A stretch of DNA of 32,117 nt from Blastocatellia bacterium (GTDB lineage Bacteria; Acidobacteriota; Blastocatellia; UBA7656; JADIYM01): contig JAJTWZ010000047.1 in the NCBI GenBank assembly GCA_021463145.1, positions 1 through 32,117 of the forward strand. Direction: 5' to 3'. Under the pieces are notes generated by a model, which searched no databases, was not told the DNA's origin, and was given only the letters and a program-made list of their open reading frames with translations. Positions within the stretch are counted from its first letter, which is position 1; every line of letters begins with the position of its first letter. Positions 357 to 29,943 of the stretch are shown in pieces. Position numbers and translations under genes: made by a program.

Positions 357-596
357 GGGGCGAGTGCAATGCAGACGATCACAGACACGGCGGGCCTTGG
401 CCGATTGATCCGAACGGAACGTAGGGCGCAGAAGCTGACGCAGGTACAACTCGCCGGACTCACCGGCGTCGGCGTGCGATTCTTGCGGGAGCTCGAGGCC
501 GGAAAGCCGAGCTGTCAGATCGGCCTCGCTCTTGAAGTGGCGGCGGCCCTGGGGATCGCGGTCTGTGTCCGCATGCGCCGGGAGCGCTCGTCGTGA
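354..596 (+). CDS. hipB: HipB-like XRE-family antitoxin
   Basis: Small helix-turn-helix protein of 80 residues (75 if translation begins at the ATG at 369). An XRE fold is visible: the LTQVQLAGLTGV segment provides the first helices and RFLRELEAGKPS is the typical recognition-helix signature of HipB antitoxins. In this family HipB dimers neutralise HipA kinase and repress their own operon. Its stop codon overlaps the GTG start of the hipA homologue, so the pair is translationally coupled in the canonical antitoxin-first order. The start at 354 is preferred because TACAAT at 341 gives a leaderless transcript. Function is assigned from family and context. Confidence 0.85.
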   Translation: MGASAMQTITDTAGLGRLIRTERRAQKLTQVQLAGLTGVGVRFLRELEAGKPSCQIGLALEVAAALGIAVCVRMRRERSS

Positions 597-7993: not shown

Positions 7994-9361
7994 TCAGCTC
8001 TGTTGGTTCTCGAAATGCGCCTGGAGGTGTGGCGACGCGACGTGCAGCATCCTCCAGACCGTGACGTGCAGCCACAGGAAGCTGCCTGCTGTCAAAACGA
8101 GTAGCGCGAAAAACGTCGTCTGTGGAATCCAGGTCCATTCGAGCAGGAATGCGAAGACGGGCGGCAGGAAGAATCCGCCCAATGCACCGAGCAGGCCGAC
8201 CAGTCCGCCAACGGCGCCGACGTCGTTGGGGAAGTACTCGGGAATGTACTTGTATACCGCCGCCTTACCGATGCCCATTCCAACACCGACGATGAATACG
8301 AAGAACGTGAACCAGTAAACGTTCATCGAGAAAGGCAGCACTTCGGTCATTCCGTCTGCGTCGAAGCGTCCGTGGACGTTGATGACGATGTGCCCGCTCG
8401 GTCCCGACAACAGAAGGGTCGCAATCGTCATCGTTCCGAATACCCAGTACATTACGCGCCGGGCGCCGAACCGGTCGGCGAGCCATCCGCCGACCGGCCG
8501 AAGGAGGCTGGCCGGAAAGATGAACAGGGCCGTCAATAGCGCCGCGTGCTGGAGCGGTAGATCGTAGACGTCCACGTAGTACTTCGGCAGCCACACGGAA
8601 AGCGCAACGTAGGCGCCGAACACCACCACGTAATAGAGGCTGAATCGCCAGACGCGAACGTCGCGAAGCGGCTGCATCATCTCGGTCAGCGATCGGCCCT
8701 TGCCTGGCAGATGATCGTGCTTCGGGCTTCCGAACCACATAGCGGCCGCCAGCACCGTCAGCATCAGGCAATAAAGAAAGGGCACGAATCGCCATCCGCC
8801 TGGAATCCAGCCGCCGTAGTAACCGGCGACGGGAACGGTAGCGATCAGGAACGGCCCAATGAATTTCGTGACGGAGGCTCCAACGTTGCCCGCTCCGAAG
8901 ATTCCCAGCGCCAAACCCTGCTGCTCCCGAGGAAACCACGCGGAGTTCCAGGCGATTCCGACCGAAAACGCATTGCCTGCAAGTCCGACGAGAAACGCGT
9001 AGAAGAGCAGTTCCCCGTATGACGAAGCCTGACTGACGAGATAAGCCGGCACTATCGTGGCAAGTATCAGCAGGGTAAACACCCGCCGGCCGCCGAAACG
9101 GTCCGTGGCGATACCGAACAGTAGTCTCCAGATAGATCCGTTGAGTATGGCGATCGCCGTAAGCCACCCGAACTGAACATCGGTGAGGCCGAACTCCTGC
9201 CTGATGGGAATCGCAAGGATGCCGAACATCAGCCATACCGCGAACATCAGGGTGAAGCCGATGCTCGACAACACGCATATGCGGATGCGCTGGGACGCCG
9301 TGCCGACGCCCTTCAGCGCGGACTCGGCTGTCGAGGCGCGACTATTCGATTCGGTAACCAT
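7994..9361 (-). CDS. narK: NarK-family nitrate/nitrite transporter (NarK1-like)
   Basis: A 455-residue major facilitator protein with about twelve hydrophobic segments. The nitrate-porter signature is visible in the fifth helix region: FSVGIAWNSAWFPREQQG followed by LALGIFGAGNVGASV. The N-terminus and first helix resemble NarK1 proteins, which in characterised systems such as Paracoccus are proton-nitrate symporters. Its start (ATG 9361) lies 12 bases after the stop of the upstream narK-like gene, with GGGAG eight bases before it, so both form one operon. Supply of nitrate to the reductase at 23127-28004 is the inferred role. Substrate direction cannot be settled by sequence alone. Confidence 0.9.
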   Translation of the reverse strand: MVTESNSRASTAESALKGVGTASQRIRICVLSSIGFTLMFAVWLMFGILAIPIRQEFGLTDVQFGWLTAIAILNGSIWRLLFGIATDRFGGRRVFTLLILATIVPAYLVSQASSYGELLFYAFLVGLAGNAFSVGIAWNSAWFPREQQGLALGIFGAGNVGASVTKFIGPFLIATVPVAGYYGGWIPGGWRFVPFLYCLMLTVLAAAMWFGSPKHDHLPGKGRSLTEMMQPLRDVRVWRFSLYYVVVFGAYVALSVWLPKYYVDVYDLPLQHAALLTALFIFPASLLRPVGGWLADRFGARRVMYWVFGTMTIATLLLSGPSGHIVINVHGRFDADGMTEVLPFSMNVYWFTFFVFIVGVGMGIGKAAVYKYIPEYFPNDVGAVGGLVGLLGALGGFFLPPVFAFLLEWTWIPQTTFFALLVLTAGSFLWLHVTVWRMLHVASPHLQAHFENQQS

Positions 9362-9373
9362 CGGTGTGACTCC

Positions 9374-10777
9374 CTAGCTGGGCTTCTCGCAGCCCTTCCG
9401 TGTGTAGAACCACCAGTTGATGGCAGTGGCGATCACGTAGAAAGCGATCGCCCCGATGAAGAACGGCGAAGCCGATCCGCTCGACGTGATGGACGTGCCG
9501 ACGAGCATCGCGAAGAGGAACGGACCGTAGGCAGCAACGGCGGCAGTCCAGCCGATCACGCCGGCGGCCTGACGCGGACTGTGCGAGAAGATGATCGGGA
9601 ACTGCCGGAAAGTTGCGGCATTTCCAATGCCAGTCAGCAGAAAGATCGCGAGCATGAGGATCACGAAGATCGGGAACTGGTCGAGCGACGTTGGAGTGAG
9701 TGCTCCGCTGAAGACGAGCGCCAGGCCGCACGCAATCATTCCGAGTCCGGTGAGGTGCGTGAGGATCGCGCCGCCGAACCTGTCGGCGACCGGTCCAAAG
9801 AGTATCCGGGTGGCCGAACCGATCAGCGGTCCGAGAAATGCCCACGTCAGGGGATCCGGGGCGTCCTGGAAACCGCCGTATACCTTTCCGATCAGCAGCG
9901 GGAAGATCGCCGAGAAGCCCGCGAAAGAACCGAACGTCATCATGTAGGTCGCCGTGCAGTACCACGTATGCCGGTTCGAGAAGATGTCGAGTTGCTCACG
10001 GAAGCTGGCGCGAATCGGAACGCTTCTCAGAAAGCACCACGCGAGCACGGCCATGACGAGCAAGAGAGGTACGTACCAGAAGGCCGCGTTCTGAAGCCAG
10101 ATGCTGGATGTCTGCCCGGCCTTCGTCATCGTCTGCGACCCGCCCCCGATTGCGCCCAGGGCCGGTGCCGCAATGATGAGCGGGGTCACGAACTGGGCGA
10201 CGCTGACGCCGAAATTGCCGATACCGGCCTGGATGCCCAGTGCCGTGCCCTGGAGTCGCTTCGGGAAGTAAATGCTCGTGCTTGGCATGTGAGACGAGAA
10301 ATCGCCTCCACCGAAGCCGGCTGAGAATGCAAGGACGAGGAACAGCCAGAATGGCGTCGCGGGGTTCATCACGGCCAGCCCAATGCCGATGCACGGCACT
10401 AGTTTGAGCAGTGTCGCAACGGTGATTACGTGACGAGAGCCAAAAATCGGAATGAGGAAGGTGTGAAGAATCCTGAGGGTTCCGCCGGCCAGTCCGGGCA
10501 TCGATGCGAGCCAGAAGAGCTGCATCGTGTCGAACTGAAACCCGATCTGCGGCAATCGCACGATGATGGCGCTCATCATGAACCAAGTAGCGAACGAGAG
10601 GATCAGGGTGACCGTCGTGATTGCCAGCGTGCGCCAGGCGATCCGGCTGCCGGTCTTTGCCCAGAACTGCGGATCGTTCGGTTCCCAATGGTCCATCCAG
10701 GTGGGACTGGAAGGTTTGTCCGGTTCCGGTGACGGCGGCTCGGCGCCACCGTCGATCTGCACATGACTCGTGTTCAT
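9374..10777 (-). CDS. narK: NarK-family nitrate/nitrite transporter (NarK2-like)
   Basis: A 467-residue major facilitator protein, first gene of the leftward pair. The N-terminal extension WEPNDPQFWAKTG and the following IAWRTL segment are typical of the NarK2/E. coli NarK type, characterised as nitrate-nitrite antiporters. The signature region FGGGDFSSHMPSTSIYFPKR and GTALGIQAGIGNFGVSV matches the nitrate-porter motifs. AAGGAGG five bases before the ATG fixes the start. A Crp/Fnr-like palindrome sits 53-68 bases upstream. NarK1-NarK2 pairs, sometimes fused, are common beside respiratory nitrate reductases, so export of nitrite in exchange for nitrate is inferred. Confidence 0.9.
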   Translation of the reverse strand: MNTSHVQIDGGAEPPSPEPDKPSSPTWMDHWEPNDPQFWAKTGSRIAWRTLAITTVTLILSFATWFMMSAIIVRLPQIGFQFDTMQLFWLASMPGLAGGTLRILHTFLIPIFGSRHVITVATLLKLVPCIGIGLAVMNPATPFWLFLVLAFSAGFGGGDFSSHMPSTSIYFPKRLQGTALGIQAGIGNFGVSVAQFVTPLIIAAPALGAIGGGSQTMTKAGQTSSIWLQNAAFWYVPLLLVMAVLAWCFLRSVPIRASFREQLDIFSNRHTWYCTATYMMTFGSFAGFSAIFPLLIGKVYGGFQDAPDPLTWAFLGPLIGSATRILFGPVADRFGGAILTHLTGLGMIACGLALVFSGALTPTSLDQFPIFVILMLAIFLLTGIGNAATFRQFPIIFSHSPRQAAGVIGWTAAVAAYGPFLFAMLVGTSITSSGSASPFFIGAIAFYVIATAINWWFYTRKGCEKPS

Positions 10778-12182: not shown

Positions 12183-12345
12183 TAGCCTGACCAGGACTAC
12201 CCTCGCCGTCGGGACGGGCGGTTCGGACGAATCGGTCACCGGGTCGCACGCTGCTTCTCCGCTTCGAATCGTCCAGGGGCACCGCAGGGGCCTTAACCTG
12301 GAGCGCGCACTTGTGCACATGATCGCTACCGGGATCGGTTCTGCG

Positions 12346-12360
12346 TACACTGTGGCCATG
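12346..12360 (+). promoter_or_regulatory. Probable leaderless promoter of hydroxyproline operon
   Basis: TACACT at 12346-12351 is followed by six bases and the ATG at 12358, so transcription would start on the start codon. No Shine-Dalgarno sequence is seen upstream. The small inverted repeat GCAC-TT-GTGC at 12307-12316 lies where an operator could sit. Evidence is spacing only, and no clear -35 box is present. Confidence 0.35.
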
Positions 12361-13965: not shown

Positions 13966-14915
13966 GCCAGGTTCCGAATACAATCGACGTGGTGGATTCC
14001 CATACCGAGGGCGAGCCGACGCGCGTCGTCGTGTCGGGCTGGCCGCAGCCGGCCGGTGCGACGATGGCCGAGCGCTGTGCCGAGCTCATCCGCGAGCAGT
14101 CGGCGCTGCGACGCGCGGTCGTATGCGAGCCGCGCGGCCACGACGCCGTCGTTGGAGCGCTGCTGACTCCTCCCGTCGAACAAGACTCGACAGCCGGCGT
14201 GATTTTCTTCAACAACGTCGGGGCGCTGGGAATGTGCGGCCACGGGCTGATTGGGGTAGCGCGGACGCTTTCCTTTCTCGGGCGTCTCGACGGCGACACT
14301 GCGCGCATCGACACGCCGGTTGGCACGGTCGGCTTCGCGATCGAGGCGGATGGATCCATTACGATTTCGAACGTCGCGTCGCGGTGCCACTCGAGAGACG
14401 TAGCCGTCGACGTGCCTGGACTCGGCCGCGTGACGGGCGACGTGGCGTGGGGCGGCAACTGGTTTTTTCTGACGCAGATTTCGAGTCCGGCGATTTCGTT
14501 CGATTACCGCCGCGAGTTGTTGAGCGCTTCCGTGGCGATCAAGCGCGCCCTCGACGAAGCGCGGATCACGGGCGAAGGCGGAGCGGAGATCGATCATGTC
14601 GAGCTGTTCGGACCCGCATCGCGAGATGACGCAGACAGCCGGAACTTCGTGCTGTGCCCCGGACTCGAGTACGACCGTAGTCCGTGCGGAACCGGAACAT
14701 CGGCGAAGATCGCGGTGCTCGCGGCTCGCGGCAAGCTGGACCCTGGCGAACGGTGGCGGCAGGAGTCGATCACGGGAAGCCTTTTTACCGGATGGTACGA
14801 GCGACGCGGAGACGAGCTGTTTCCCTTCATATCCGGACGCGCTTTCGTGACGGCGCGTTCTTCGCTCGTCTTCGAACCGGGCGATCCGTTCCTGGATGGG
14901 ATAGGCGGGCGGTGA
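13962..14915 (+). CDS. 4-hydroxyproline 2-epimerase
   Basis: A 317-residue member of the proline racemase family. Both catalytic cysteines are present: Cys92 in MCGHGLIG and Cys242 in DRSPCGTGTSA. Having two cysteines indicates a racemase/epimerase rather than trans-3-hydroxyproline dehydratase, in which one position is threonine. It would convert trans-4-hydroxy-L-proline to cis-4-hydroxy-D-proline, the first step of the pathway. The GTG start overlaps the upstream stop by four bases, and the next gene starts inside its stop. Preference for hydroxyproline over proline is inferred from the operon (hydroxyproline dehydrogenase subunits, deaminase and semialdehyde dehydrogenase). Confidence 0.92.
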   Translation: MSQVPNTIDVVDSHTEGEPTRVVVSGWPQPAGATMAERCAELIREQSALRRAVVCEPRGHDAVVGALLTPPVEQDSTAGVIFFNNVGALGMCGHGLIGVARTLSFLGRLDGDTARIDTPVGTVGFAIEADGSITISNVASRCHSRDVAVDVPGLGRVTGDVAWGGNWFFLTQISSPAISFDYRRELLSASVAIKRALDEARITGEGGAEIDHVELFGPASRDDADSRNFVLCPGLEYDRSPCGTGTSAKIAVLAARGKLDPGERWRQESITGSLFTGWYERRGDELFPFISGRAFVTARSSLVFEPGDPFLDGIGGR

Positions 14916-16024
14916 GTGTGGATGCGATCGTCGTAGGCGCGGGCATCGTCGGCGCCGCCGTGGGTGAGGCGCTCGCGGCCGACGGACTTGCGGTGACGGT
15001 GCTCGACGCCGAGTTCCCGGGCGCGGGTACGACTTCCGCCGCAATGGGGCACGTCGTGGTGATGGACGACTCGGAAGCACAGTTTGCGCTGACCGGGTAT
15101 TCGCGGCGCCTCTGGAGCGAGCGCGCGGCGGAGCTGCCACCCGATGTCGAAGACGAGTGCCCGGGAACTTTGTGGGTCGCCTCGGACGAAGAGGAACTCG
15201 AACACGCGGTACGCAGATCGCATTTCTATCGAGAGCGCGGCGTCGAGGCCGAGGTGCTCGACAGCGCGGCGCTGGAGAAGGCTGAGCCGAATCTGCGGCG
15301 AGGCCTTGCGGGAGCATTGCTGGTGCACGGGGATCGCGTGATCTATCCGCCCAATGCCGCGAGGCGGCTGTTGTCGAACGCGGTCGTTCGCGGCGCTCTG
15401 GCAGAACGGCGCGTTCGTGTGGAAGCTATCGAGCCTGGCCGTGTTCGCGTGAACGGATCGTGGCGCGAGACGGCTATTGTCGTAAACGCCGCGGGAGTTG
15501 GAGCACCGGAGCTGACACCCGGTCTCGCGATCGAGCCGCGAAAGGGCCACCTGGTCATCAGCGACCGGTATCCGGGGTTCTGCCGCCACCAGCTCGTCGA
15601 GCTCGGGTACTTGAAGAGCGCTCATTCGGCCGGGGCCGAGTCGGTCGCGTTCAATCTTCAGCCAAGGGCCACGGGACAGGTGCTCGTCGGCTCGTCGCGA
15701 GAGTTCGTCGGCCTCGATCGCTCGACAAACCGCCGGCTCGTGGGTCGAATGGTGCGCCGGGCCGTGGATTTCGTTCCGGCGCTCGCCGCTCTTTCGGTGC
15801 TTCGGACCTGGGTCGGGTTCCGGCCGTCGACACCCGACAACCTGCCGTTCATCGGTGAGGTTGACGAAGGTGTGTTCGTCGCTGCTGGTCACGAGGGGCT
15901 CGGGATCACCACGGCGCTGGGGACGGCGCGGTTGCTTGCGGATCTCGTCGCCGGTCGTGTACCGGAGATCGACCCCTCGCCGTATTCGCCGCTGCGTCCA
16001 ATGCCGGAAGCTCAACATGGCTGA
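14912..16024 (+). CDS. D-hydroxyproline dehydrogenase, FAD subunit (DAO family)
   Basis: A 370-residue FAD-dependent oxidoreductase of the D-amino-acid oxidase/glycine oxidase fold. The dinucleotide-binding motif GAGIVG is at residues 9-14 directly after the start, and the C-terminal FAD segment (GHEGLGITTALGTARLLADL) is intact. In heteromeric D-hydroxyproline dehydrogenases a subunit of this type oxidises cis-4-hydroxy-D-proline to 1-pyrroline-4-hydroxy-2-carboxylate and passes electrons to partner iron-sulfur and flavin subunits, which are encoded immediately downstream. The GTG start at 14912 overlaps the epimerase stop. A role on another D-imino acid cannot be excluded. Confidence 0.88.
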   Translation: MSVDAIVVGAGIVGAAVGEALAADGLAVTVLDAEFPGAGTTSAAMGHVVVMDDSEAQFALTGYSRRLWSERAAELPPDVEDECPGTLWVASDEEELEHAVRRSHFYRERGVEAEVLDSAALEKAEPNLRRGLAGALLVHGDRVIYPPNAARRLLSNAVVRGALAERRVRVEAIEPGRVRVNGSWRETAIVVNAAGVGAPELTPGLAIEPRKGHLVISDRYPGFCRHQLVELGYLKSAHSAGAESVAFNLQPRATGQVLVGSSREFVGLDRSTNRRLVGRMVRRAVDFVPALAALSVLRTWVGFRPSTPDNLPFIGEVDEGVFVAAGHEGLGITTALGTARLLADLVAGRVPEIDPSPYSPLRPMPEAQHG

Positions 16025-16265
16025 CTCGGTTACGATTCGTGTCGACGGCAGGGAGATTCGGGCCGGCTCGGATACAACGGTAGCCGTTGCACTGATCAAC
16101 GCCGGCGTCTGGACGTTCCGCACGTCGGTGACTGGCGAGCCAAGGGGGCCGGTGTGCGGGATGGGCGTGTGTTTCGAGTGTCGCGTAGCGATCGACGGCG
16201 TGGAGCACGTGCGTGCCTGCATGGAACCCGTGCGCGACGGGATGGAGATCGATACCGGTGGCTGA
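16017..16265 (+). CDS. [2Fe-2S] small subunit of dehydrogenase
   Basis: An 82-residue ferredoxin-like protein. The four cluster ligands are visible as C47-G-M-G-V-C52-F-E-C55 with Cys68 further on, the plant-type [2Fe-2S] pattern found in the small subunits of heteromeric amino-acid dehydrogenases and in the N-terminal part of sarcosine oxidase alpha. It would carry electrons between the two flavoproteins encoded on either side. It overlaps the upstream gene by eight bases and the downstream one by eight, so the three subunits are translationally coupled. Confidence 0.88.
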   Translation: MADSVTIRVDGREIRAGSDTTVAVALINAGVWTFRTSVTGEPRGPVCGMGVCFECRVAIDGVEHVRACMEPVRDGMEIDTGG

Positions 16266-17502
16266 AGTCTTCGACGTGGCAGTTGTCGGCGCGGGGCCGG
16301 CCGGTGTTGCGGCGGCGTGCCGCGTGGCGGAGCGTGGTGCGCGCGTGGCGCTCGTCGACGAGGGATTTCGGCCGGGGGGTCAGATCTACCGGCATCGCGA
16401 GGGAAGAGCGCCGGCGGCGATTGGCGAGTGGATGGCCCGACTGGCTCGGCTGAAGGTCGATGTGATTCACCGGACGGCGGTCCACGATGCGCTGCGACTC
16501 GACGGGAAGTTCCAGTTGCGAGCGGAGAGCGTTCACCTGGAGGCGCGGAAGATCGTGCTCGCGACAGGCGCCAGGGAACTGTTGCTCCCGTTTCCCGGAT
16601 GGACGCTGCCGAACGTATTCTCCGCGGGGGGATTGCAGGCTCTCGTGAAGTCGGGGCTCGAGGTCGCGGGAAAGCCGGTGGTCATAGGCGGTTCGGGTCC
16701 GCTGCTGCTGCCGGTGGCGGCAACCCTGGCGAAGGCCGGTGCGAAAGTCGAATTGGTGTGCGAGCAGGCGAGACGCGCGTCGCTGGCCCGGGCGCTGCCC
16801 TGGCTCGCGCGTTCGCCTCGGAAGCTTGCCGAAGCGTTGAGTTACCAGGCGGCATTCGGGCCGTCGCGATACCGGACATCGACCTGGATTTCGGAGGCGA
16901 TTGGCACGGATCGGCTGGAGGCCGTCGTGACCAATTCCGCGCGCCGGGTCTCTTGCGATTTCGCGGGTGTGTCGTTCGGACTGGTTCCGAATGTGGAGCT
17001 CGCCGTATTGCTCGGATGCGAGCTCCGGGATGGTTTCGTCGTCGTCGATCGGCGGCAGCAGTCGACCGTACCAGGAGTCTTCGTGGCGGGCGAGCCGTGC
17101 GGCATCGCTGGCGTCGATGGAGCGCTGGGGCAGGGGCTCGTCGCTGGCGACGCGGCGTGCAGGGATGTCACGGTGACGGCGGACGTAGAAGCCGCCAGGG
17201 GCTGGTATGAGTACAAGCCTCCGCCTCTTCTTCGTTCCTTCGCCCTGCGGCACGAAGTACTCGAGCTCGCCCGCGCCGACACGGTGGTCTGCAGGTGCGA
17301 AGATGTCAGGCTCTCACGCTTCGATCCGGAATGGTCGGCCCGCGAAGCCAAACTGGCGACTCGAGCAAGTATGGGACCGTGCCAGGGTCGAATCTGCGGC
17401 CCGGCACTCGACGCGATCCTCGGTTACGGGGCAGACTGCGTGCGCTGCCCGGCCAAGCCCGCGACGTTCGAATCACTGCTTATTCCGGAGGACCGAAAAT
17501 GA
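16258..17502 (+). CDS. D-hydroxyproline dehydrogenase, NAD/FAD-type subunit
   Basis: A 414-residue pyridine-nucleotide-disulfide-type oxidoreductase. GAGPAG near residue 10 is the FAD motif, VIGGSGPLLLPVAATLAKAG is the second Rossmann motif, and a C-terminal BFD-like [2Fe-2S] domain is marked by C345-x-C347 with C375-x4-C380. The same layout occurs in the large subunit of heteromeric hydroxyproline, octopine or nopaline dehydrogenases. Together with the two preceding products it would form a three-subunit D-hydroxyproline dehydrogenase, probably at the inner membrane face, passing electrons to the respiratory chain. It starts with GTG at 16258, overlapping the ferredoxin gene, with GGAG upstream. 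Confidence 0.88.
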   Translation: MAEVFDVAVVGAGPAGVAAACRVAERGARVALVDEGFRPGGQIYRHREGRAPAAIGEWMARLARLKVDVIHRTAVHDALRLDGKFQLRAESVHLEARKIVLATGARELLLPFPGWTLPNVFSAGGLQALVKSGLEVAGKPVVIGGSGPLLLPVAATLAKAGAKVELVCEQARRASLARALPWLARSPRKLAEALSYQAAFGPSRYRTSTWISEAIGTDRLEAVVTNSARRVSCDFAGVSFGLVPNVELAVLLGCELRDGFVVVDRRQQSTVPGVFVAGEPCGIAGVDGALGQGLVAGDAACRDVTVTADVEAARGWYEYKPPPLLRSFALRHEVLELARADTVVCRCEDVRLSRFDPEWSAREAKLATRASMGPCQGRICGPALDAILGYGADCVRCPAKPATFESLLIPEDRK

Positions 17503-18722: not shown

Positions 18723-19931
18723 TCAAGTTGTAAGACCGAGTATCTGGGGTTCGAACCCTGGAAATACCGCAGCGGCGTTGGCGAATCCCATTGGGCCGGT
18801 GATCACGTCCGAGAGGACCGATCGATAGTCGATCCTGACCGGCAATCCGCCCGGCCCGGCGAGCGCTTCGTCCTCGATCAATCCGGGCCAATCGCCGACG
18901 ATGCGTCCGCCTGCCACCCTGCCTCCCAGCAGCATCGCCGCAAAGCCGCGCCCGTGATCCGTTCCGGCGGAGCTGTTCTCTCCGATCCTGCGGCCGAATT
19001 CCGTCATTACCAGTGTCGTAACGTCGGCGCTCCGCGTCCCCAGATCTCGATCGAACGCAGCGAGACCCGTTGCAAGCTGGGCAATCGCGTCGGCCTGAAA
19101 GCCCGTCGCCGCTCCCTGGACGAAGTGCGTGTCCCATCCACCGAGGTCAAGGCAGGCTACCTCGAGTCCGACGTCCGCCTTTACGAGCCGGGCAACTTCG
19201 CGGAGTCCGGCGGCGAAATCGTCCTGACCGTACGCAGCGATTGCCGAAGGCTCGTAGGACTGCCCGCGTAACGTCTCGACCTTCGAGAGCAGCGCAAGGG
19301 TTTCGCGCCCCGGATCGCCGAGCACACCGGGCTCGCCGGCGTAGAGTGTTGCGAGACCTGCGGCGAAGTCTCCCGCCCGTGATGCCGAGGCGCCAATCCG
19401 GATCTCGTCGATCGTGGTGATCGCGCACGTTGAGCGCGCGCCCCGAAGCGACTCCGGAATGGCCGTGCCAATCGCGACAGCGGAGAGTGGCCCTGCGGAC
19501 TCTGCGCCACGCGAACGGAGCATTCTTCCAATCCATCCTCCGCCGATCGGGTGCCCGTAGGCTTCGCCGTGCTCGACCTGGTCCTGCGTCTCGAAATGCG
19601 ATCCCGTCGGGTTGTCGGATCCAACCGCCTGCACGATCGCCAGCCGCCCTTCCTCGAATGAAGGAACCAACGGAGCCATCATCGGATGCAGTCCATAGAA
19701 ATCGTCGAGTCGCACCGAACAATCGGCAGAACCGCCCGGCGCCGGCGGCGGAATTGCTATCGTCGGGCGGACTCCGTAGTAGCGATCGTCGCCATATGGA
19801 ACGAGGATGTTCAGCGTGTCCGCTCCTCCACGCAGGAACACGACGACGAGCGTATGGCGGCGGTTCACTTCTGCCGGTTCGATCGGCAAGACGAAATTGC
19901 GCAGGAAGACTCGACGTGACGATCGTCTCAT
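18723..19931 (-). CDS. DUF1501 family protein
   Basis: A 402-residue protein of the DUF1501 family, a branch of the alkaline-phosphatase fold. The VVVFLRGGADTLN segment near the start and the C-terminal MTEFGRR with GTDHGRGFAAMLLGG are the family hallmarks. The basic N-terminus (MRRSSRRVFLRN) resembles the start of a Tat signal but lacks a clear following hydrophobic stretch. It begins two bases after the stop of the DUF1800 gene; DUF1800-DUF1501 pairs are a recurrent unit in Acidobacteriota, Planctomycetota and other groups, with no established function. A secreted or periplasmic role is usual for the family but is uncertain for this copy. Confidence 0.88.
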   Translation of the reverse strand: MRRSSRRVFLRNFVLPIEPAEVNRRHTLVVVFLRGGADTLNILVPYGDDRYYGVRPTIAIPPPAPGGSADCSVRLDDFYGLHPMMAPLVPSFEEGRLAIVQAVGSDNPTGSHFETQDQVEHGEAYGHPIGGGWIGRMLRSRGAESAGPLSAVAIGTAIPESLRGARSTCAITTIDEIRIGASASRAGDFAAGLATLYAGEPGVLGDPGRETLALLSKVETLRGQSYEPSAIAAYGQDDFAAGLREVARLVKADVGLEVACLDLGGWDTHFVQGAATGFQADAIAQLATGLAAFDRDLGTRSADVTTLVMTEFGRRIGENSSAGTDHGRGFAAMLLGGRVAGGRIVGDWPGLIEDEALAGPGGLPVRIDYRSVLSDVITGPMGFANAAAVFPGFEPQILGLTT

Positions 19932-19933
19932 TG

Positions 19934-21439
19934 CTAGTGCCTCTGAAATCCTGGCGATGCGAGCACGAGCGCAACGACGCCAGCAACGCGATCGGCGACG
20001 AGAACGGACCTGTCGGCCGCAATAGACTCGACAACGGCGGTTTCGACCGGTGTCGCAGTGCGCCCGGTAAAGTGCGCGACGAACCGCGGCGCGTCGATCG
20101 ATTCGCCATGGATCGCGTCAAGCGCGCCTGCAAGCTCCACAACCGGAGCATTGACAGTCGGTATCTGGTTGGTGGAGAGCACGGCCGCGAAGTTCCACCG
20201 CCAGAGCAGGGAACCAACCCACTCGGAAGCTTCGTCGGAATAGCCGTCGGGCGTTGGAAGCTGGAACAGTCCCTGGCCCATGCGGTTCAGGTATTCGACG
20301 AGCGCCGGATGCGCGTGCGTGTCGGCGCCAAGAGCGCGAAGGCCCGAGACGACGAACTCGAATGGGCGCTTGACCTTCGCGCCGCGGGCGTTGCGAAACT
20401 CGTCGGAACGGAGCACCTCACGGACCGTCCGGGCGATGTCTCCGCCGGTCTCTGAGAACGTCTTCGCGATTCGCGACACCAGATCAGGCGGTGGATCGTC
20501 GCAAACGAAGCGGCGAACGAGCTTGGCGGAGATGTGATTTGCGGTCGACGGATGCAGGCACGCAATATCGATGACTCGGTCGAGGTCGGACGCGCCGCCG
20601 CCGGCCGCTATCGTGTGCCCCAGCACCGACTTCTCGCCGTCGTCGTGCCGCAGTGGATCGAAGACGACGGTGCCTTTCGACCACTTCGTCTTCAACGTCC
20701 AACCCGTCAGACACCTGGCCACCTCCGAGACGTCCTGTTGCGTGTACCCCCCGTTCACTCCGAGCGTGTGGAGTTCGAGCAACTCTCGGGCGTAGTTCTC
20801 GTTCGGCACCTCGTCCGGCGACGACCGGCGATTCTCCTTGCCGTCTAGGTACACGAGCATCGCGGGAGATATCGCCGATGCGCGAATCAGGTCACGGAAC
20901 TTGCCGAGCGCGTGTTTTCGGACGACTTCGCGATCGTCGCTGGCTTTCAGGAAGATGCAGTCGCCCTTCTCCAGGAAGATGTTCAAATGATCCGACCAGA
21001 ATCCGACCATCACCTCGAAGAGCTGGCGTCGGCTGTAGATCGCCCGAAGGAGCGTGTGGCGCGAGAGTTCCTCGCGTAACACCGGCTTCTTGAACTCGTA
21101 GCCGAGCGACGGGTCGCAATGAACGGATTCGAACCTTCTGGCGCGCAGGTCGCACGCCCTGTCGTCGATCGACGCGGGATCGAGCTGCTCGTCGATCCAG
21201 GCCGGCTCGCCCATAGCTCTCACTCGCTCGAGGTCACCTGGCCAGGGCCCGAATGCCGCCCTGCTGAGCAGGTGAAAGGCCGGGTCGATACCGGCACCGG
21301 ACGCGACGGCGACGGAATCGGGAATCGACTGCCCGAGGTCGCGAGCGACCCGGCTGATCAGCCGTTCACAACCGGCAAATGGCATCGCCGCGGCTCCCAG
21401 GGCAGCGGTGGCGAGCAACTCTCGCCGCGTCGGGCTCAT
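19934..21439 (-). CDS. DUF1800 family lipoprotein
   Basis: A 501-residue DUF1800 protein. The N-terminus carries a twin-arginine-like TRRELL followed by an alanine-rich hydrophobic stretch and a lipobox-like FAGC (Cys24), so export and lipidation are likely. Family motifs are plain: NYARELLELHTLGV with the following GGYTQQDVSEVARCLTGWT, and a C-terminal PTPDGYSDEASEWV. The molecular function of DUF1800 is unknown; it travels with DUF1501, as here. The start at 21439 overlaps the stop of the upstream membrane-protein gene by four bases, giving a three-gene coupled operon. Confidence 0.9.
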   Translation of the reverse strand: MSPTRRELLATAALGAAAMPFAGCERLISRVARDLGQSIPDSVAVASGAGIDPAFHLLSRAAFGPWPGDLERVRAMGEPAWIDEQLDPASIDDRACDLRARRFESVHCDPSLGYEFKKPVLREELSRHTLLRAIYSRRQLFEVMVGFWSDHLNIFLEKGDCIFLKASDDREVVRKHALGKFRDLIRASAISPAMLVYLDGKENRRSSPDEVPNENYARELLELHTLGVNGGYTQQDVSEVARCLTGWTLKTKWSKGTVVFDPLRHDDGEKSVLGHTIAAGGGASDLDRVIDIACLHPSTANHISAKLVRRFVCDDPPPDLVSRIAKTFSETGGDIARTVREVLRSDEFRNARGAKVKRPFEFVVSGLRALGADTHAHPALVEYLNRMGQGLFQLPTPDGYSDEASEWVGSLLWRWNFAAVLSTNQIPTVNAPVVELAGALDAIHGESIDAPRFVAHFTGRTATPVETAVVESIAADRSVLVADRVAGVVALVLASPGFQRH

Positions 21440-21993
21440 TGCCGTGCCGGCTCGGCGGTGACAGTTGGAAATCCGAGCTCGGTGGAATTCGAATCGGGCG
21501 AAGGCTCGGCGGGAATGAGCCTTCGAATCAGTGCGATCGTTGCGGCCCCGGCTCCGATCACGAAGGCAACGGGAAGCAAGACGAACCAGCCCACTATGGG
21601 GAGAAGCCCCGACAGCGCCAGTACGACACCACCCCGCAGAGTCGCACGCCAGGGCCGGTGAGCGTCCGATGCCGAAGCCAGTCGCTCTCCGATGCACGTC
21701 GCAAGCCCCGCGACGCCAATGAAAGAGTGGAACACGGTCGCGCTCAGCACTGTGGCTCCGATGATTGTGCCAATCGGACCGCCCAGCTTCGCGAGCGCGA
21801 TGGAAGAAGCGATAGGGACCAGCGCTACCGGAAATCCGACGACGAACGGAAGGACGAGACCTCGACGCGTCCGTTCTGTTGAAACACGGACGGCGTTGGG
21901 CCATAGCCCACGCGCAAGCAAGGCGAGACTGACGAATGCAAGCGTCAGCCCCAGAACGACGAAGAAGACTGCCATCGTATCGGCCATCAGCAT
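21436..21993 (-). CDS. Membrane protein of unknown function
   Basis: A 185-residue protein with about four to five hydrophobic segments (roughly residues 8-28, 46-64, 70-98, 120-150) and a polar C-terminal tail. I do not recognise the family. AGGAGG eight bases before the ATG at 21993 selects this start over an ATG two codons later. It is the first gene of the operon with DUF1800 and DUF1501, overlapping the former by four bases, so it may help anchor or export them. That is inference from coupling only. Confidence 0.75.
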   Translation of the reverse strand: MLMADTMAVFFVVLGLTLAFVSLALLARGLWPNAVRVSTERTRRGLVLPFVVGFPVALVPIASSIALAKLGGPIGTIIGATVLSATVFHSFIGVAGLATCIGERLASASDAHRPWRATLRGGVVLALSGLLPIVGWFVLLPVAFVIGAGAATIALIRRLIPAEPSPDSNSTELGFPTVTAEPARQ

Positions 21994-22230: not shown

Positions 22231-22956
22231 TCAGCCCTGAGATTCCATCTCCATGGCCCGTGGGAAGAGCACATTGTTTTCGAGGTGGATGTGCTGATGG
22301 AGATCGCGCTCGAGTTCTTCCAGCCCTTCGTAGAGAGCGCGGAAGCTCATGCAGGCATCGGCTGGAAGCGTGAACCCCCCAGACGCCTCACGAATGTCGC
22401 GCAACAGCGCGCCGTCGACGTCGTGCTCGTGCATCATCATCCGGATCGGATTCGACACCGTTCCGAACGGGGGCATCGGAATTGACCGTCCCGCGCTGTG
22501 CGCCCGCTCCATGTCGGTGATGTAAGGGAAGAGGATTCGCTCCTCCTTCATCATGTGCGGCATCAGGTCGTCCCGTAGTTGACAGAACGCATGACCCACC
22601 TTGGCGAGTTCCGGATGGTTCTCGCCGTGCCGCGATTGCACCTTCGCGAGCAGCTGGTCCAGTCGAGCAAGTTCATCGGCGGTGAAGACGTGGTGCTTCG
22701 ACACGATGTGCTCGATGAGCTGCTCGAGCGTCGCTTCCTTCAGCATCCGGTCGAGTTCGGTGACAGGGCTCGACAGCTCGAGCTCGTTCAGCTTGCCAAT
22801 GAGCTCATCGCCGTCGATTCCCGCAGCAGCGCACGCAGCTTCCAGAGTCTGCCCGCCTCCGCAGCAATAGTCGATTCCGGCGCGTTCGAATACCCGGGTG
22901 GCTCCCGGGACGCGCAATGCAAGATCCCTGACCGTTTCGTGAATGATTGCTGGCAT
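22231..22956 (-). CDS. ric: Ric/ScdA/YtfE iron-sulfur cluster repair protein
   Basis: A 241-residue di-iron protein of the RIC family, normal length. The N-terminal ScdA domain carries the DYCCGGG motif with two adjacent cysteines, and the hemerythrin-like part supplies conserved histidines in [22 protein letters not shown] and HQHIHLENN. These proteins restore iron-sulfur clusters damaged by nitric oxide or peroxide. AAGGAGA six bases before the ATG fixes the start at 22956. It is divergent from the nitrate-reductase-like operon across 170 bases that contain a Crp/Fnr-like palindrome. Nitrosative stress protection during nitrate reduction is the inferred role. Confidence 0.92.
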
Positions 22957-23126: not shown

Positions 23127-24311
23127 ATGCGGTTGAAACACATGACTCGACTCGACATTCGTCCCGAGAATCTCAAGGCGACGGCGTGGGGCACGGCAGC
23201 GACTGCCGTGCTCGGCGTACTCATCGTCGCCGGGTCGCGACGTCTGAATCATTTCGATGCCGCGCTCGTCGGCTACACGTTCGCCGTGCTCTTCGCGACC
23301 TTCGGCGTGACGTACCGCTACGCGATGTGGCTCATGCGTCCGACGACCGCGATCTACTGGCGAAGGGGATGGCAGGTGTTTCTAAGGCCGAAGTACATCG
23401 GCCGAAACATCGCGCTCTGGATACGGCACGTTGGCAGCGACTTCGTGCTCAATGCCTTCGTGTTCCGGCGCGGGAAGGCGCGATGGATGGCGCATTGGCT
23501 CATCATGTGGGGCTGCGTGCTCGCCACGGCGATCACGTTTCCCCTCGTCTTCGGCTGGGTACATTTCGCGACGGTGACGGGAGATTTCGGAACTTACGAA
23601 GCATTCGTCTTCGGCTTTCCGGTCTCCCGATTCCAGATCGACTCGCTGATAGGGTTCCTCACGTTTCACGGTCTCGTGTGGGCCTCGATCCTGGTGACCC
23701 TGGGTGTGATGCTCGCAATGCGAAGACGCATGCGAGATCGAAGCGCGGCCGCGATTCAGCAGTTCGGCGAAGATTTCCTCCCGCTCATCCTGCTTTTCGC
23801 AATCAGCGTCACGGGATTGATGCTCACGGCCAGCTACACCTGGATGAAGGGTTACGCGTACGACTTCCTTGCCATCCTTCACGCCATCACGGTTATCTTC
23901 ACGCTGCTCTGGTTGCCATTCGGCAAGTTCTTCCACATCTTTCAGCGGCCCGCGCAGATCGGCGTCGCCTTCTACAAGGAAGTAGGCCGGCTGGAACCGC
24001 CCGCGCATTGTCGCCGTTGCGGACACGGCTTCACCTCGGAATTGCACGTGCGTGACCTCATCGAAGCCGAGCGCGTGCTTGGCTACCGATACGATATCGA
24101 CGGAGAGGTCGAACACTACCAGTGGATATGCCCGCCGTGCCGCCGCTCCATGCTCGTTCTCGCCCAGGGACGCGCCTGGGCGGACGAGCTTGGAACGGGT
24201 GTCTACCCCCTTGGCGGCGAATCACCCGACGGAGTCACGCCACGCTTCGGCAACGCGGGCGTCAACCAGGGTCCGCTTGGAAGCGAGGACCGCGACAACT
24301 TCCATCCCTGA
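23127..24311 (+). CDS. NarI/DsrM-like cytochrome b membrane subunit with cysteine ribbon
   Basis: A 394-residue membrane protein with about six hydrophobic helices in residues 25-275. Histidines 123, 181, 252 and 270 lie in or beside helices; His252 and His270 are 18 apart, the same spacing as the haem ligands His187 and His205 of E. coli NarI, and are followed by the KFFHIFQRP ending typical of NarI-type cytochromes. A b-type haem quinol oxidase role is therefore likely. The soluble C-terminal part (residues about 290-394) has two C-x2-C pairs (CRRC, CPPC), suggesting a zinc ribbon or rubredoxin-like site. The start at 23127 lacks a strong ribosome binding site; an ATG at 23142 is an alternative. 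Automated annotation may call such proteins transporters. Confidence 0.7.
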
Positions 24312-24337
24312 AACGAAGGACCAACTAATCACACCAG

Positions 24338-26545
24338 ATGGCAAACGCTCCAGACCAGACTTCGCTGTTCGTCGATCGGTTCGGTCCGCACCCCGCCTAC
24401 GCAACGGAAGTCCATCTCGAGACGAGTGGCAGGATCGACCGGCTCGTCTCGACACACTGTTGCTTTTGCGGACAGCAATGCGGCATCAACCTGAAGGTTC
24501 GCGACAACGCCGTCGTCGGCTTCGAGCCACGAGAAGACTTTCCGTTCAACGAAGGCAAGCTCTGCCCGAAGGGCGTGAAGCGATATCTGCAGGGAATGCA
24601 TCCCGACCGGCTGCTCTCGGCGTTCGAGCGCGACGATTCCTCGCCATCCGGATTCCGGCCGATGACATACGAGCGTGCTGTCGAGCGCGTTGCGGCCGAG
24701 ATCGACAGAATCCAACGCGAGCACGGGCCGGACGCGTTCGCCGTTCTCAGCGGCGCCAGCCTGACGACCGAAAAGACCTACCTGATGGGCAAGTTCGCGC
24801 GCGTCTGCCTGAAGACGCGCTACATCGACTACAACGGCCGGCTTTGTATGGTCAGCGCAGGCGCCGGTAACAAGAAAGCGTTTGGCATCGACCGGGCGGC
24901 GAACCCGTGGTCTGACATTCCAAAGGCAGAGGTAGTCTGGATTGCAGGCGCCAACGTCGCCGAATGCGCGCCGATCACTACAAGTTATGTCTGGCAGGCG
25001 CGCGAAAACGGCGCCAGGATCGTCGTCGTCGATCCTCGAATCACCCCGATTGCGCGAACTTGCGACCTCTTCCTTCCCGTCAAGCCCGGACGCGACATTG
25101 CACTCTTCAACGGCGTGCTCCAGTTGATGATCGAGAACGACTGGATCGACGGCGATTTCATCGAGCGGCACACCGTTGGCTTCGACGCGGTTGCGGAGCA
25201 CGTTCGCGAGTGGACGCCGCGCCGCACCGCGGAGGTGACCGGCATCTCCGAGAAGGCGATCCGAAAGGCCGCGGAATGGTGGGGCCAGGCAAGCACGAGT
25301 TTCCTTCTGCATGCACGCGGTATCGAGCACCACACCCACGGTGTCCAGAACGTGCTCGGGGCGATCAATATGGTTCTTGCCTCGGGCCGCATCGGACGCG
25401 AGGGCTGCGGGTACGCAACCATCACCGGACAGGCGAACGGGCAGGGAGGGCGCGAGCACGGACAGAAGTGTGACCAGCTTCCTGGCTGGCGCGACATCGA
25501 AAACGACGAACATCGCTCGTACATTGCGTCCGTCTGGGATGTCGAGCCAGAGACGATTCCGCACTCCGGAGTCGATGCCTACGAGATCTTTCGCAAGATC
25601 GAGGCCGGCGAGATCCGCGGGTTGCTCTCGATCTGCTTCAATCCGAAGGTTTCCTTGCCGGACAACTCGTTCGTCACGCGAATGCTCGAGAAGCTCGACT
25701 TCTTCGTTGCAATCGATTTCTTCCTCAGCGAGACGGCGCAACACGCCGACATCGTTCTGCCTGGGTCGCTTCACGAAGAGGATGAGGGAACCGTGACGCA
25801 GATCGAGGGGCGCGTCATCAAGATCAACAAGGCCGTGGACCCTCCTGGCGATGCGCGCCAGGACTGGCGAATCGTGCAGGACATCGCTCACGCGCTCGGA
25901 AGGCCGCACGGTTTTTCATTCGAAAGTCCGCGGGAGATCTTCGACGAGCTGCGGATCGCTTCCAGAGGAGGCGTAGCCGACTATTCGGGTATCACCTACG
26001 AGAAAATCCAGAAGCAGAATGGAGTTTTCTGGCCTTGCCCCGGCGATGACCACCCTGGCACCCCCCGTCTTTTCGAGGCGGACTCATGGAACCCGGTGGC
26101 GAAAGGTTCGGGACCGTTCTACTTTCCGGACGGCAAGGCGCGTATGAACGTCGCGCCATACACTCCGCCCGCGGAGGACGTCGACGACGAGTATCCGCTC
26201 ATGCTCACGACCGGCCGCGTCGTCAGCCAGTTTCTCTCGGGGACGCAGACCCGTCGAATCGGCCCGCTGGTCGATCAGTACCCGGAGCCGCTGTGCGAAA
26301 TGCATCCGCGGCTCGCAGAAGCGCTCGGCATTCGAACCGGAGATCCGGTGATCGTCGAGTCTCGTCGCGGCACAATGCGGCTACCGGCGATCGTCGTGTC
26401 CACCATCCGGCCCGACACCGTCTTCATCCCGTACCACTGGCCCGGAGCACGGAGCGCCAACCAGTTGACGGTGTCGGCCCAGGATCCGATCTCGAAGATC
26501 CCTGAGTACAAGGTCTGTGCGGTTCGAATCAGGAAGGAGGCGTGA
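24338..26545 (+). CDS. Molybdopterin oxidoreductase, nitrate reductase-like catalytic subunit
   Basis: A 735-residue Mo/W-bis-MGD enzyme. Ligands of the N-terminal [4Fe-4S] cluster are visible: Cys41, Cys44, Cys48 and Cys76, followed by Lys78. Cys170 in [10 protein letters not shown] matches the Mo-ligand cysteine motif of NapA and assimilatory Nas enzymes, and the [15 protein letters not shown] block is typical of the Nas/Nap branch. The C-terminal molydopterin-dinucleotide domain ends near [11 protein letters not shown]. There is no Tat signal, so the enzyme is cytoplasmic, unlike NapA. The C-terminal [2Fe-2S] BFD domain of many Nas proteins is absent. Context (NarK, ric) points to nitrate; formate or another oxyanion remains possible. 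Confidence 0.85.
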
Positions 26546-26548
26546 TCG

Positions 26549-27205
26549 ATGCCGGTTCCCGCGCACATGGAGTTCTTCATCGACCCGAATCGATGTATCG
26601 GTTGCCAGGCGTGCGTCCAGGCGTGCAGCGAATGCGACACGCACAAGGGCCACTCGATGATCCATCTCGAGTACGTTGATCGCAGCCACTCGGTGCAGAC
26701 GGCTCCCGTTGTCTGCATGCACTGCGATTCGCCAACTTGCGCCGAGGTCTGTCCGGCTGACGCGATCAAGCGAACGGAGGATGGCGTCGTGCAGACAGCG
26801 CGCAAGCCGCGCTGCATCGCATGCAACAACTGCGTGCTTGCGTGTCCGTTCGGAGTGCCGAAGATGAAGACGGACGCACACCTGATGATGAAATGCGACA
26901 TGTGCTATGACCGCACGTCGGTCGGCAGAAGGCCTATGTGCGCGACGGTCTGCCCGAGCGAAGCGCTGTTTTTCGGCACTCGCGAACAGATCGAAGCCCG
27001 CCGCAAGCGGTCTGCGCCTACCAATTCATTCCGGTTCGGAAACCAGGCCATCACGACGAAGGTGAACATGATGCTTCCGGTCACCGCGCGTTCCGAGTAC
27101 ATCGACGTCACAGCGGCGATGGGCGACCGTAACGTCGGAAAGGACATTCGGTTCACCGTGCTTACTGACGCCCTGTTCGACGACGCGGAGGAGAGGACTG
27201 TATGA
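26549..27205 (+). CDS. Four-cluster ferredoxin subunit (DmsB/NrfC type)
   Basis: A 218-residue electron-transfer subunit with sixteen cysteines in four groups: 16-19-22-26, 56-59-64-68, 89-92-95-99 and 116-119-131-135. This is the pattern of four cubane clusters seen in DmsB, PsrB and NrfC. No signal peptide is present, matching the cytoplasmic catalytic subunit upstream. It would pass electrons from the membrane cytochrome to the molybdenum site. AGGAGG eight bases before the ATG fixes the start, three bases after the catalytic subunit's stop. The C-terminal 80 residues ([15 protein letters not shown] onward) are outside the cluster domain and may contact the other subunits. Confidence 0.9.
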
Positions 27206-27750
27206 CAGGCAGGACTGGAGATCGAATCGCAGCAGGGCCGGACGGGAGGCCGCTAGCCGAGCAACCGCCGTGGCGTCGCGATTTCCCGGTCGACACGGCC
27301 GAGGAGAACTACGTTGCGAGGCGCGATTTCACCAAGTTTCTTGTTCTGACGAGCGCGGCGTTCGTGACCGGGCAGTTCGCCATTTTGTTTGGAGAGCTTT
27401 CGCGTCGAAATCGGCCCGCGCCGGGAGCGGTGGCAATCGTGTCGGCCGCAAATCTTCCAGTCGGAGGCGCCAAGGCATTCGCGTATCCGGGCGAGCACGA
27501 CACCTGTCTTCTGGTGCGAGTAGACGAAACGAACTTCGTGGCCTTCAGCCAGGAGTGCACGCACCTGTCGTGCGCCGTCATTCCGCAACCCGAACAGAAA
27601 CGCTTTTTCTGCCCATGCCACGACGGAAGCTTCGACCTCGAGACCGGGCGTCCCATCGCTGGCCCGCCGCAAAGACCACTGCCGCGCGTAAATCTCGAGA
27701 TTCGCGACGGCGTCGTCTATGCAACCGGCATCGAGTTGAGGACGCTATGA
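27202..27750 (+). CDS. High-potential Rieske protein
   Basis: A 182-residue Rieske iron-sulfur protein. Cluster ligands are C119-T-H121 and C137-P-C139-H140 with Cys124 (CTHLSC) available for the Cys124-Cys139 disulfide; this is the bc1/b6f-type, high-potential arrangement followed by GSFD. A twin-arginine-like ARRDFTKF (Arg40, Arg41) precedes a hydrophobic segment (about 45-63), so it is probably Tat-exported and anchored with the cluster in the periplasm. A Rieske protein in a bacterial nitrate-reductase operon is unusual; haloarchaeal nar operons encode a Rieske protein (NarB) and a cytochrome b (NarC). The gene overlaps its upstream neighbour by four bases. Confidence 0.9.
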
Positions 27751-28004
27751 GCGACATTCTCACTCGAGAGCAACGGATCACGATCGTCTACGGGGTTCTG
27801 TGCATCGTCGTAATGATCGTTGTCCTGCAACTCTGGCTTCTGACCGCGACGATGAACGCATATCTAGGCGGCGACGGTTCTGTCGTAATTCCGGCGGCGC
27901 TGGCGAGCCTCGGTTGTCTCGGTCTCAACCTTGGACTCCTGAAATATCTCTACGCGATGGAAAGGCCCAGGCCCGAATCACGCGGGCCACAGCCGGGTGC
28001 CTGA
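27747..28004 (+). CDS. Small two-helix membrane protein (DUF6755-like)
   Basis: An 85-residue protein with two hydrophobic helices (about 11-34 and 47-69) and a short polar tail. It overlaps the Rieske gene by four bases (ATGA), so it belongs to the reductase operon and is probably an accessory membrane subunit that holds the Rieske or cytochrome part. I think it resembles the DUF6755 family seen beside Rieske and molybdopterin genes, but that match is from memory and not certain. No cofactor-binding residues are visible. Confidence 0.7.
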   Translation: MSDILTREQRITIVYGVLCIVVMIVVLQLWLLTATMNAYLGGDGSVVIPAALASLGCLGLNLGLLKYLYAMERPRPESRGPQPGA

Positions 28005-29382: not shown

Positions 29383-29943
29383 TCAGGCCACCTGACCAGT
29401 GTGCTTGTATAGCGTAGTCCTCGACACACCGTACCGCCGCGCGATGTCGGAAACGGCAATCGTCCTTTCACGCCACAGTACGCGGATCTCCCGCAGCTCC
29501 CGTTCGCCCAGCTTCGGCTTTCGCCCGCCCTTGCGGCCACGCGCACGCGCCGCCGCAAGGCCCGCGCACGTCCGTTCCCGAATCAGGTTGCGCTCGAACT
29601 CGGCAAGTGCCGCAAAGACGTGGAAGACGAGCTTGCCTGAAGCACTAGACGTCTCGATCCGCTCGGCTATCGACTCGAAACCGACGCTCGCGCGTTCGAG
29701 CTCGCCCACGATGCGGACCAGATCCGGCAGGCTCCGTCCGAGCCGGTCGAGCCGCCAGACGACGAGCGTGTCGCCTGCACGCAGCGCCTTGCGGCATTGC
29801 TCGAGCTCAGGCCGATCGGCGTTCTTGCCTGAAATCCGCTCTTCGTAGATCGCCGCGCACCCGGCCCTCGCGAACGCGTCGCGCTGGAGATCGAGACTCT
29901 GGTCGTCGGTCGGCACCCTCGCGTATCCGATGCGTTGATTTAT
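29383..29943 (-). pseudogene. Serine recombinase (resolvase/invertase), inactivated
   Basis: The frame encodes a resolvase/invertase-type serine recombinase: N-terminal catalytic domain with ADRPEL, WRLDRLGRS and the long FAALAEFERNLIRERT helix, then a C-terminal helix-turn-helix (SDIARRYGVSRTTLYKH). The start of the domain reads NQRIGYARVPTDDQ, where the family has YARVSTxDQ: the nucleophilic serine is proline. The codon where the initiator methionine is expected is ATA (29943-29941), with a stop four codons upstream and no ATG. The only usual start codon is the GTG at 29916, inside the catalytic motif. Two separate lesions indicate a dead gene, a relic of a transposon or invertible element. 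Confidence 0.75.

Follow-up and report, generated by a model that had tools for sequence, protein, structure and literature searches.

What enzyme could be built from a Nas-type molybdenum subunit, a four-cluster ferredoxin, a membrane cytochrome b, a Rieske protein and a DUF6755 protein encoded side by side? This question is raised by contig JAJTWZ010000047.1 of a Blastocatellia bacterium (Acidobacteriota, assembly GCA_021463145.1), from which a stretch of 32,117 nucleotides (the window) was analysed in a genome of 5.28 Mb. The answer that fits best, with a probability of about 0.78, is that the five genes encode one membrane-bound, quinol-fed respiratory nitrate reductase facing the cytoplasm, an analogue of NarGHI that would be built on a Nas-type catalytic subunit. 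A preliminary description, made from the letters of the window alone, had proposed an unusual quinol:nitrate reductase and had placed the five genes on one strand with short gaps or overlaps. The coordinates of the open reading frames (ORFs) confirm this arrangement, with gaps of 26 and 3 bp followed by two overlaps of 4 bp:

23127..24311 (+): putative distant NarI-like membrane cytochrome b, 394 amino acids (aa), from the ORF call; the ATG at 23142 is an alternative start
24338..26545 (+): catalytic molybdenum bis(pyranopterin guanine dinucleotide) (Mo-bisPGD) subunit, Nas-type, 735 aa, from Pfam, NCBIfam, tree and residues
26549..27205 (+): four-cluster [4Fe-4S] ferredoxin subunit, 218 aa, 16 cluster Cys and no twin-arginine translocation (Tat) signal, from Pfam, NCBIfam and alignment
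27202..27750 (+): Rieske [2Fe-2S] protein, 182 aa, with a Tat-type RR motif and one transmembrane (TM) anchor, from PF00355 and a structure model
27747..28004 (+): DUF6755 protein (PF20540), 85 aa, two predicted TM helices, Pfam E 2.7e-32

The catalytic protein contains all three molybdopterin-oxidoreductase Pfam domains, and among the NCBIfam models NasC (NF047855) ranks first with 810 bits. This is below the cut-off of 1100, which is passed by no homologue in 149 Acidobacteriota genomes. The NapA model (TIGR01706) reaches 279 bits against a cut-off of 930, and the NarG model (TIGR01580) 57 bits against 1084. In a maximum likelihood tree of 36 rows, formate dehydrogenases (FDHs) are split from nitrate reductases with support 100/100, and the catalytic subunits of the module form one clade (100/99) within the Nas/Nap side. 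The sister of this clade (100/98) is made of Nas proteins of assimilatory context from Deinococcus grandis, where the gene is next to nirBD, and from Acidobacteriota.

The active-site residues agree with the tree, and together they bear out the earlier assignment of this subunit to the nitrate reductase type. The ligands of the N-terminal [4Fe-4S] cluster are C41, C44, C48 and C76, and the CxxCxxxC...C pattern is that of Fdh, Nap and Nas enzymes (PMC8301774). The Mo-ligand region, GRLCMVSAG, is Nas/Nap-like, as had been described, and the Mo ligand C170 is followed by M171 in 89/89 rows, where FDHs have Cys/Sec-His instead. At the site of the Arg-containing PLRGQ of FDHs the subunit has TITGQ, so that the FDH Arg is replaced by Thr. 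The earlier remark that the molybdoenzyme lacks a Tat signal extends to its relatives (Tat motif in 0/20 loci with called starts), and the subunit is therefore predicted to be cytoplasmic. We infer from these features that its substrate would be nitrate.

The cytochrome passes no Pfam family cut-off, and its AlphaFold2 model has about six TM helices with a predicted local distance difference test (pLDDT) score of 84.5. Of 20 relatives examined, 11 have a weak match to the NarI family PF02665, the best with E 1e-4. Foldseek searches with the model give EtfD with a probability of 1.00 and NarI with 0.99, both with weak E-values (NarI E 0.13), and hhalign against NarI gives an E-value of 9e-4 but a probability of 23. 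These matches and the His alignment suggest a fold distantly related to the NarI superfamily, in line with the NarI-like character proposed before. A bc1/b6f-type cytochrome b match is absent from the Pfam results for this protein, and an identity with the bc1-type cytochrome b of haloarchaea was rejected on that ground.

Four His residues are candidate haem ligands: H123, H252 and H270 are conserved in 96/96 relatives and H181 in 93/96. H252 and H270 are 18 residues apart and align with His187/His205 of Escherichia coli NarI. The NarI-like His spacing of the preliminary description is thus right for this pair and wrong for H123/H181, which is spaced unlike NarI. The loop 70-116 is strongly net positive (9.8 K+R vs 1.6 D+E) and the segment 142-173 is net negative, so that H181 and H252 would lie near the periplasmic face and H123 and H270 near the cytoplasmic face. 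At the cytoplasmic end, residues 292-340 hold an invariant C-terminal CxxC...CPxC, with four Cys in 96/96 relatives, which is a candidate zinc ribbon or rubredoxin-like iron site.

The ferredoxin had been described as a 16-Cys protein, and each of the 16 cluster Cys is kept in 84-85 of 85 rows. Its score with the NarH model TIGR01660 is 37.7 bits (cut-off 524). In the Rieske protein the ligands CTHLxC...CPCH and two extra Cys are invariant at all six positions (84/84), and the RR motif is present in the same 84-row alignment. This protein is the only carrier of a Tat motif in the module. It has a conserved long cytoplasmic N-terminus, one TM helix and a cluster domain that is predicted to be periplasmic. 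The label bc1-type, given to it at first, is fair by the ligands, but the best structural matches of the model (pLDDT 89.5) are the arsenite-oxidase subunit AioB and then the b6f Rieske protein. DUF6755 scores 111 bits against a gathering score of 27 and is probably a small membrane subunit paired with the Rieske protein.

The same gene order was sought in other genomes and found. The cytochrome alignment was scanned against 84,980 species-representative genomes and has at least 464 relatives there, of which 80 were kept. By title they belong to Acidobacteriota, Chloroflexota (including Herpetosiphon isolates), Planctomycetota (Lacipirellula limnantheis), Myxococcota and Armatimonadota, and further to Gemmatimonadota, Verrucomicrobiota, Latescibacterota, Bacteroidota and others. 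Among 297 evenly drawn genomes of Acidobacteriota, 39 are positive for PF20540, and all 30 loci that were read lie in the module cluster; PF20540 is also found in 9/294 Planctomycetota genomes. Deinococcus sp. NW-56 carries the module on a plasmid, and its cytochrome (WP_104992190.1, locus L141, 7774-8886) has the public annotation 'MFS transporter' in this one annotated record. The order cytochrome, catalytic subunit, ferredoxin, Rieske, DUF6755 is constant in the larger stretches that were read, and DUF6755 is weak in the most divergent lineages. Among the 80 kept relatives, 20 Acidobacteriota loci and the Deinococcus plasmid, every contig of sufficient length has the complete module, apart from one exception that is described below. 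Chance is excluded, since about 90 loci from about 10 phyla show these five genes in this order. Homologous loci contain both the Rieske gene and the cytochrome gene, again apart from that exception, which has no Rieske gene. Neither of the two outcomes that the preliminary description named as refuting it was therefore seen: the enzyme does not fall among FDHs, and these two genes are not absent from the related loci.

Three further genes of the window were read together with the module:

22231..22956 (-): RIC/ScdA di-iron Fe-S repair protein of the nitrosative-stress type, divergent and upstream of the module, TIGR03652 238.8 bits (cut-off 204.7)
7994..9361 (-): NarK-type nitrate/nitrite transporter of the major facilitator superfamily (MFS), best model TIGR00886 with 212 bits, below the cut-off of 311.7
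9374..10777 (-): another NarK/NarU-type transporter, forming a tandem pair with the one above, TIGR00886 268 bits and NarU model 272 bits, both below cut-off

The tandem pair, for which NarK is the best or near-best model, lies about 12 kb from the module, and the protein of 7994..9361 is a candidate nitrate/nitrite carrier for it. No nirBD, nirA or siroheme genes were noticed within the window, no NarJ was recognised in the module operon, and an FNR-box search of the window found 3 matches, fewer than the 6 that chance would give, and none of them is upstream of the operon.

Directly after DUF6755, 61 of 64 readable loci have a gene for a SLAC1-family anion channel (41) or an MFS protein (20, NarK-type where checked). 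RIC is present in 22 module loci and Crp/Fnr-type regulators in 17. NrfHA adjoins the module in three genomes (G063, G051 and G038) and in Lacipirellula limnantheis, the order in G038 being module, NarK, NrfH, NrfA, NarK. In the genome of the window, further nitrogen genes were looked up one family at a time. NrfA occurs in 26/39 Acidobacteriota genomes with PF20540 vs 48/258 without it (Fisher p = 3e-9), and when genus g42 is left out, in 12/23 vs 44/254 (p = 4e-4). Of the 36 module genomes examined for NarG and NapA, 6 have NarG, with a fragment in addition, 1 other has NapA, and 28 have neither. The Cu nitrite reductase NirK is not a general partner, being above cut-off in only 2/30 module genomes. 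The best reading is that nitrate reduction by the module is largely ammonifying. An apparent hemerythrin gene about 700 bp downstream in many loci was dropped from consideration: in most of them it is an antisense shadow of the NarK gene, at a fixed offset.

The SLAC1/TehA-family channels directly downstream of the module (loci in the range L039-L138) are of separate interest as candidate bacterial nitrate/nitrite channels, possibly replacing NarK; no open-access paper was found that ties SLAC1/TehA to nitrate reductase operons.

The proposed mechanism follows the principle of NarGHI. Nitrate would enter the cytoplasm via the linked NarK-type carrier or SLAC1 channel, and quinol, possibly menaquinol, would give up its electrons on the periplasmic side of the cytochrome b. 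These would cross the membrane from a distal haem (H181/H252) to a proximal haem (H123/H270), and pass through the four ferredoxin clusters and the [4Fe-4S] cluster of the catalytic subunit to nitrate at the Cys-ligated Mo, the energy being conserved as a redox half-loop. The nitrite would be exported and, in many hosts, reduced by periplasmic NrfHA in ammonification. The Rieske protein and DUF6755 would form an accessory arm facing the periplasm, probably a second point at which cytochrome c delivers or takes up electrons.

A quinol-fed nitrate reductase of this kind is supported by the order kept across phyla, the place in the tree, C170-M171 and the replaced His and Arg of FDHs. It is further supported by the linkage to SLAC1/NarK, NrfHA, RIC and Crp/Fnr, by the enrichment of NrfA and by the 28/36 genomes without NarG or NapA. 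The separate assimilatory nas of genome G086, presented below, the haem ligands, the positive 70-116 loop and the similarity to NarI point in the same direction, and a linear path from quinol to nitrate explains the conserved haem ligands and clusters.

Several observations weigh against it. The catalytic protein and the cytochrome stay below the curated cut-offs of known families, so that substrate and fold are assigned by inference, and H181 is absent from 3/96 cytochrome relatives. One locus (L095, JADLGW010000051.1) has the cytochrome and the catalytic gene, and the genes for the ferredoxin, the Rieske protein and DUF6755 are missing downstream of them. It could reflect loss, rearrangement or an assembly fault, and is left as a single exception rather than treated as a truncated variant of the module. 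The sole control for kinship in the NrfA statistics is the omission of genus g42. The genome of the window has two NarG, with one NrfHA and one SLAC1, so the module is not the sole nitrate reductase there and would be an additional one in this host. Finally, a simple NarGHI-like path leaves the role of the Rieske protein unaccounted for; together with DUF6755 it could serve quinol-splitting, the entry of electrons from cytochrome c, or a structural or regulatory role.

The second of these uses leads to the alternative that survives best, in which the Rieske protein takes electrons from a periplasmic cytochrome c and these cross the membrane via the haems to nitrate. The AioB protein, to which the Rieske fold is closest, trades electrons with cytochrome c (the matches include 8ed4, a complex of arsenite oxidase and cytochrome c552), and the invariance of the Rieske ligands indicates that an essential redox function is served. 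However, the module has no dedicated cytochrome c, and the NarI-like arrangement of ligands suggests a quinol site, which leaves this route rather unlikely.

Somewhat less likely still is a bc-like Qo site formed by the cytochrome and the Rieske protein, from which one electron would go to the Rieske protein and a periplasmic cytochrome c and the other to the haems, the ferredoxin and nitrate. The module would then represent a third class of respiratory nitrate reductase, spread over about 10 phyla. Its NarI-like diheme cytochrome would act jointly with the periplasmic Rieske protein to split quinol electrons in a Q-cycle-like or bifurcating manner and to couple cytoplasmic nitrate reduction to a second branch in the periplasm. 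Apart from L095, the cytochrome is always co-encoded with a Rieske protein of the high-potential type, as suggested by its two invariant extra Cys, and the predicted positions of the Rieske cluster in the periplasm and of the ferredoxin in the cytoplasm are those that such a split would use. However, the cytochrome falls on the NarI side and not with the bc1 cytochrome b, no conserved gene for a cytochrome c was noticed among those of the module, and no energetic need for bifurcation is evident because nitrate is a high-potential acceptor.

An assimilatory enzyme with a membrane electron supply, serving nitrogen nutrition, is improbable. The sister clade is of assimilatory context, and such genes of Acidobacteria are publicly annotated as assimilatory (PMC5900883), but the module is linked to NrfHA and RIC and not to nirBD or nirA. 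In addition, genome G086 holds, beside the module, a distinct nas that adjoins nirB, nirD and a siroheme methyltransferase gene. Canonical assimilation is thus disfavoured by genomic context, and the preference for respiration in the preliminary description is upheld by this separate nas and by the NarK/SLAC1 and NrfHA linkage.

It is equally doubtful that the catalytic subunit and the ferredoxin cross the membrane together with the Tat-targeted Rieske protein, as AioA does with AioB, to form a periplasmic complex. The Tat motif on the Rieske protein alone and its closest fold would fit such a transfer, but a transporter or anion channel after the module in 61/64 loci, which is sensible mainly for a cytoplasmic site, disfavours it, and the Rieske TM segment, with its long conserved cytoplasmic N-terminus, looks like a permanent anchor. 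A formate dehydrogenase, or an enzyme for another substrate, is highly improbable: FDHs are the best solved-structure matches of the catalytic subunit and the FdhA model ranks second with 566 bits (cut-off 666, missed), but the subunit lies outside the separate FDH clade, has Met in place of the FDH His and Thr in place of the PLRGQ Arg, scores higher with NasC and is linked to NarK, SLAC1 and NrfHA.

Further genes of the window were also noted. A serine recombinase/resolvase gene (29383-29916, -), about 1.4 kb downstream of the module, hints at a mobile element or a site of recombination beside it. A HipA-type kinase toxin with HipA_C and Couple_hipA domains is encoded at 593-1852 (+), and the ORF 189-596 just upstream may be its HipB partner. 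Genes for an aldehyde dehydrogenase, a proline racemase-family protein and two FAD oxidoreductases stand in a row at 12157-17502 (+) and resemble a hydroxyproline-catabolism cluster. The DUF1501/DUF1800 genes at 18723-21904 (-) are a common pair.

A published description of the five-gene module was not found in open-access full texts, subscription journals being outside the search, and DUF6755 is named in no open-access paper searched; if the proposed function is right, the module would give this domain a functional setting. A survey of the dimethyl sulfoxide (DMSO) reductase superfamily gives NasC/NasA/NarB only as assimilatory (PMC10100899), a survey of Acidobacteria treats nasA in the same way (PMC5900883), and another found nrfAH in 23 metagenome-assembled genomes and narGHI in 15 (PMC8100337). 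If the proposed function is true, nitrate respiration is under-counted: surveys with narG/napA markers would miss the module, because the label given to its catalytic gene is that of an assimilatory enzyme or of a generic molybdopterin oxidoreductase, and its cytochrome is called an MFS transporter in the one annotated record that was read. This could explain the excess of nrfAH over nar/nap in acidobacterial surveys (PMC8100337) and the NrfA-bearing genomes without a known nitrate reductase. The module would also be a natural complex in which a Rieske protein is joined with a Nas enzyme and a NarI-like cytochrome. Its cultured hosts Herpetosiphon, Lacipirellula limnantheis and Deinococcus sp. 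NW-56 make it testable, and in the first two of them neither NarG nor NapA was found.

The module is classed here as a variant of respiratory nitrate reductase. It was tested for features that define NarGHI, Nap and assimilatory Nas, was found to lack defining features of each, and is therefore kept apart from all three. Its catalytic subunit belongs to the same broad clade as NasC/NasA/NarB, with the same Mo-site signature, but those enzymes work with NirBD/NasG/NasB or a soluble ferredoxin, and the module has a membrane cytochrome, a four-cluster ferredoxin, an anchored Rieske protein and DUF6755. In Paracoccus a Nas catalytic subunit, NasC, is likewise served by a Rieske protein, NasG (PMC3475470), which is NirD-like and NADH-linked via NasB, unlike the Tat-anchored Rieske protein of the module with its membrane subunits. 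NapA/NapGHC shares the Cys-ligated Mo and the same broad nitrate reductase branch, but it is Tat-exported with c-type haems, and the module enzyme has no Tat motif and is far below the NapA cut-off. AioAB also combines a MopB enzyme with a Tat-targeted Rieske protein, AioB being the best structural match of the module Rieske. AioAB is not known to have a four-cluster ferredoxin or a NarI-like cytochrome. AioA is, moreover, periplasmic and has no protein Mo ligand (PMC10100899). With cytochrome bc1/b6f the module Rieske shares fold and ligands, and the module cytochrome has no bc-type Pfam match. The comparison with haloarchaeal nar operons, made in the preliminary description, is apt in that nitrate reductase genes stand beside genes for a Rieske protein (NarB) and a membrane cytochrome b (NarC); it fails for the catalytic subunit, which is NarG-type there, and for NarC, which is a bc1-type cytochrome b (PMC8301774). 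NarGHI differs by its catalytic subunit, that of the module being Nas/Nap-type with Cys-ligated Mo and a CxxCxxxC cluster, by NarH, by a NarI to which the module cytochrome is a remote relative, and by NarJ, and the module adds the Rieske protein and DUF6755. The two systems share linkage to NarK and the aligned His pair, and the principle proposed for the module would be that of NarGHI, with a quinol site and two haems b in the membrane subunit, a four-cluster ferredoxin and a cytoplasmic Mo site.

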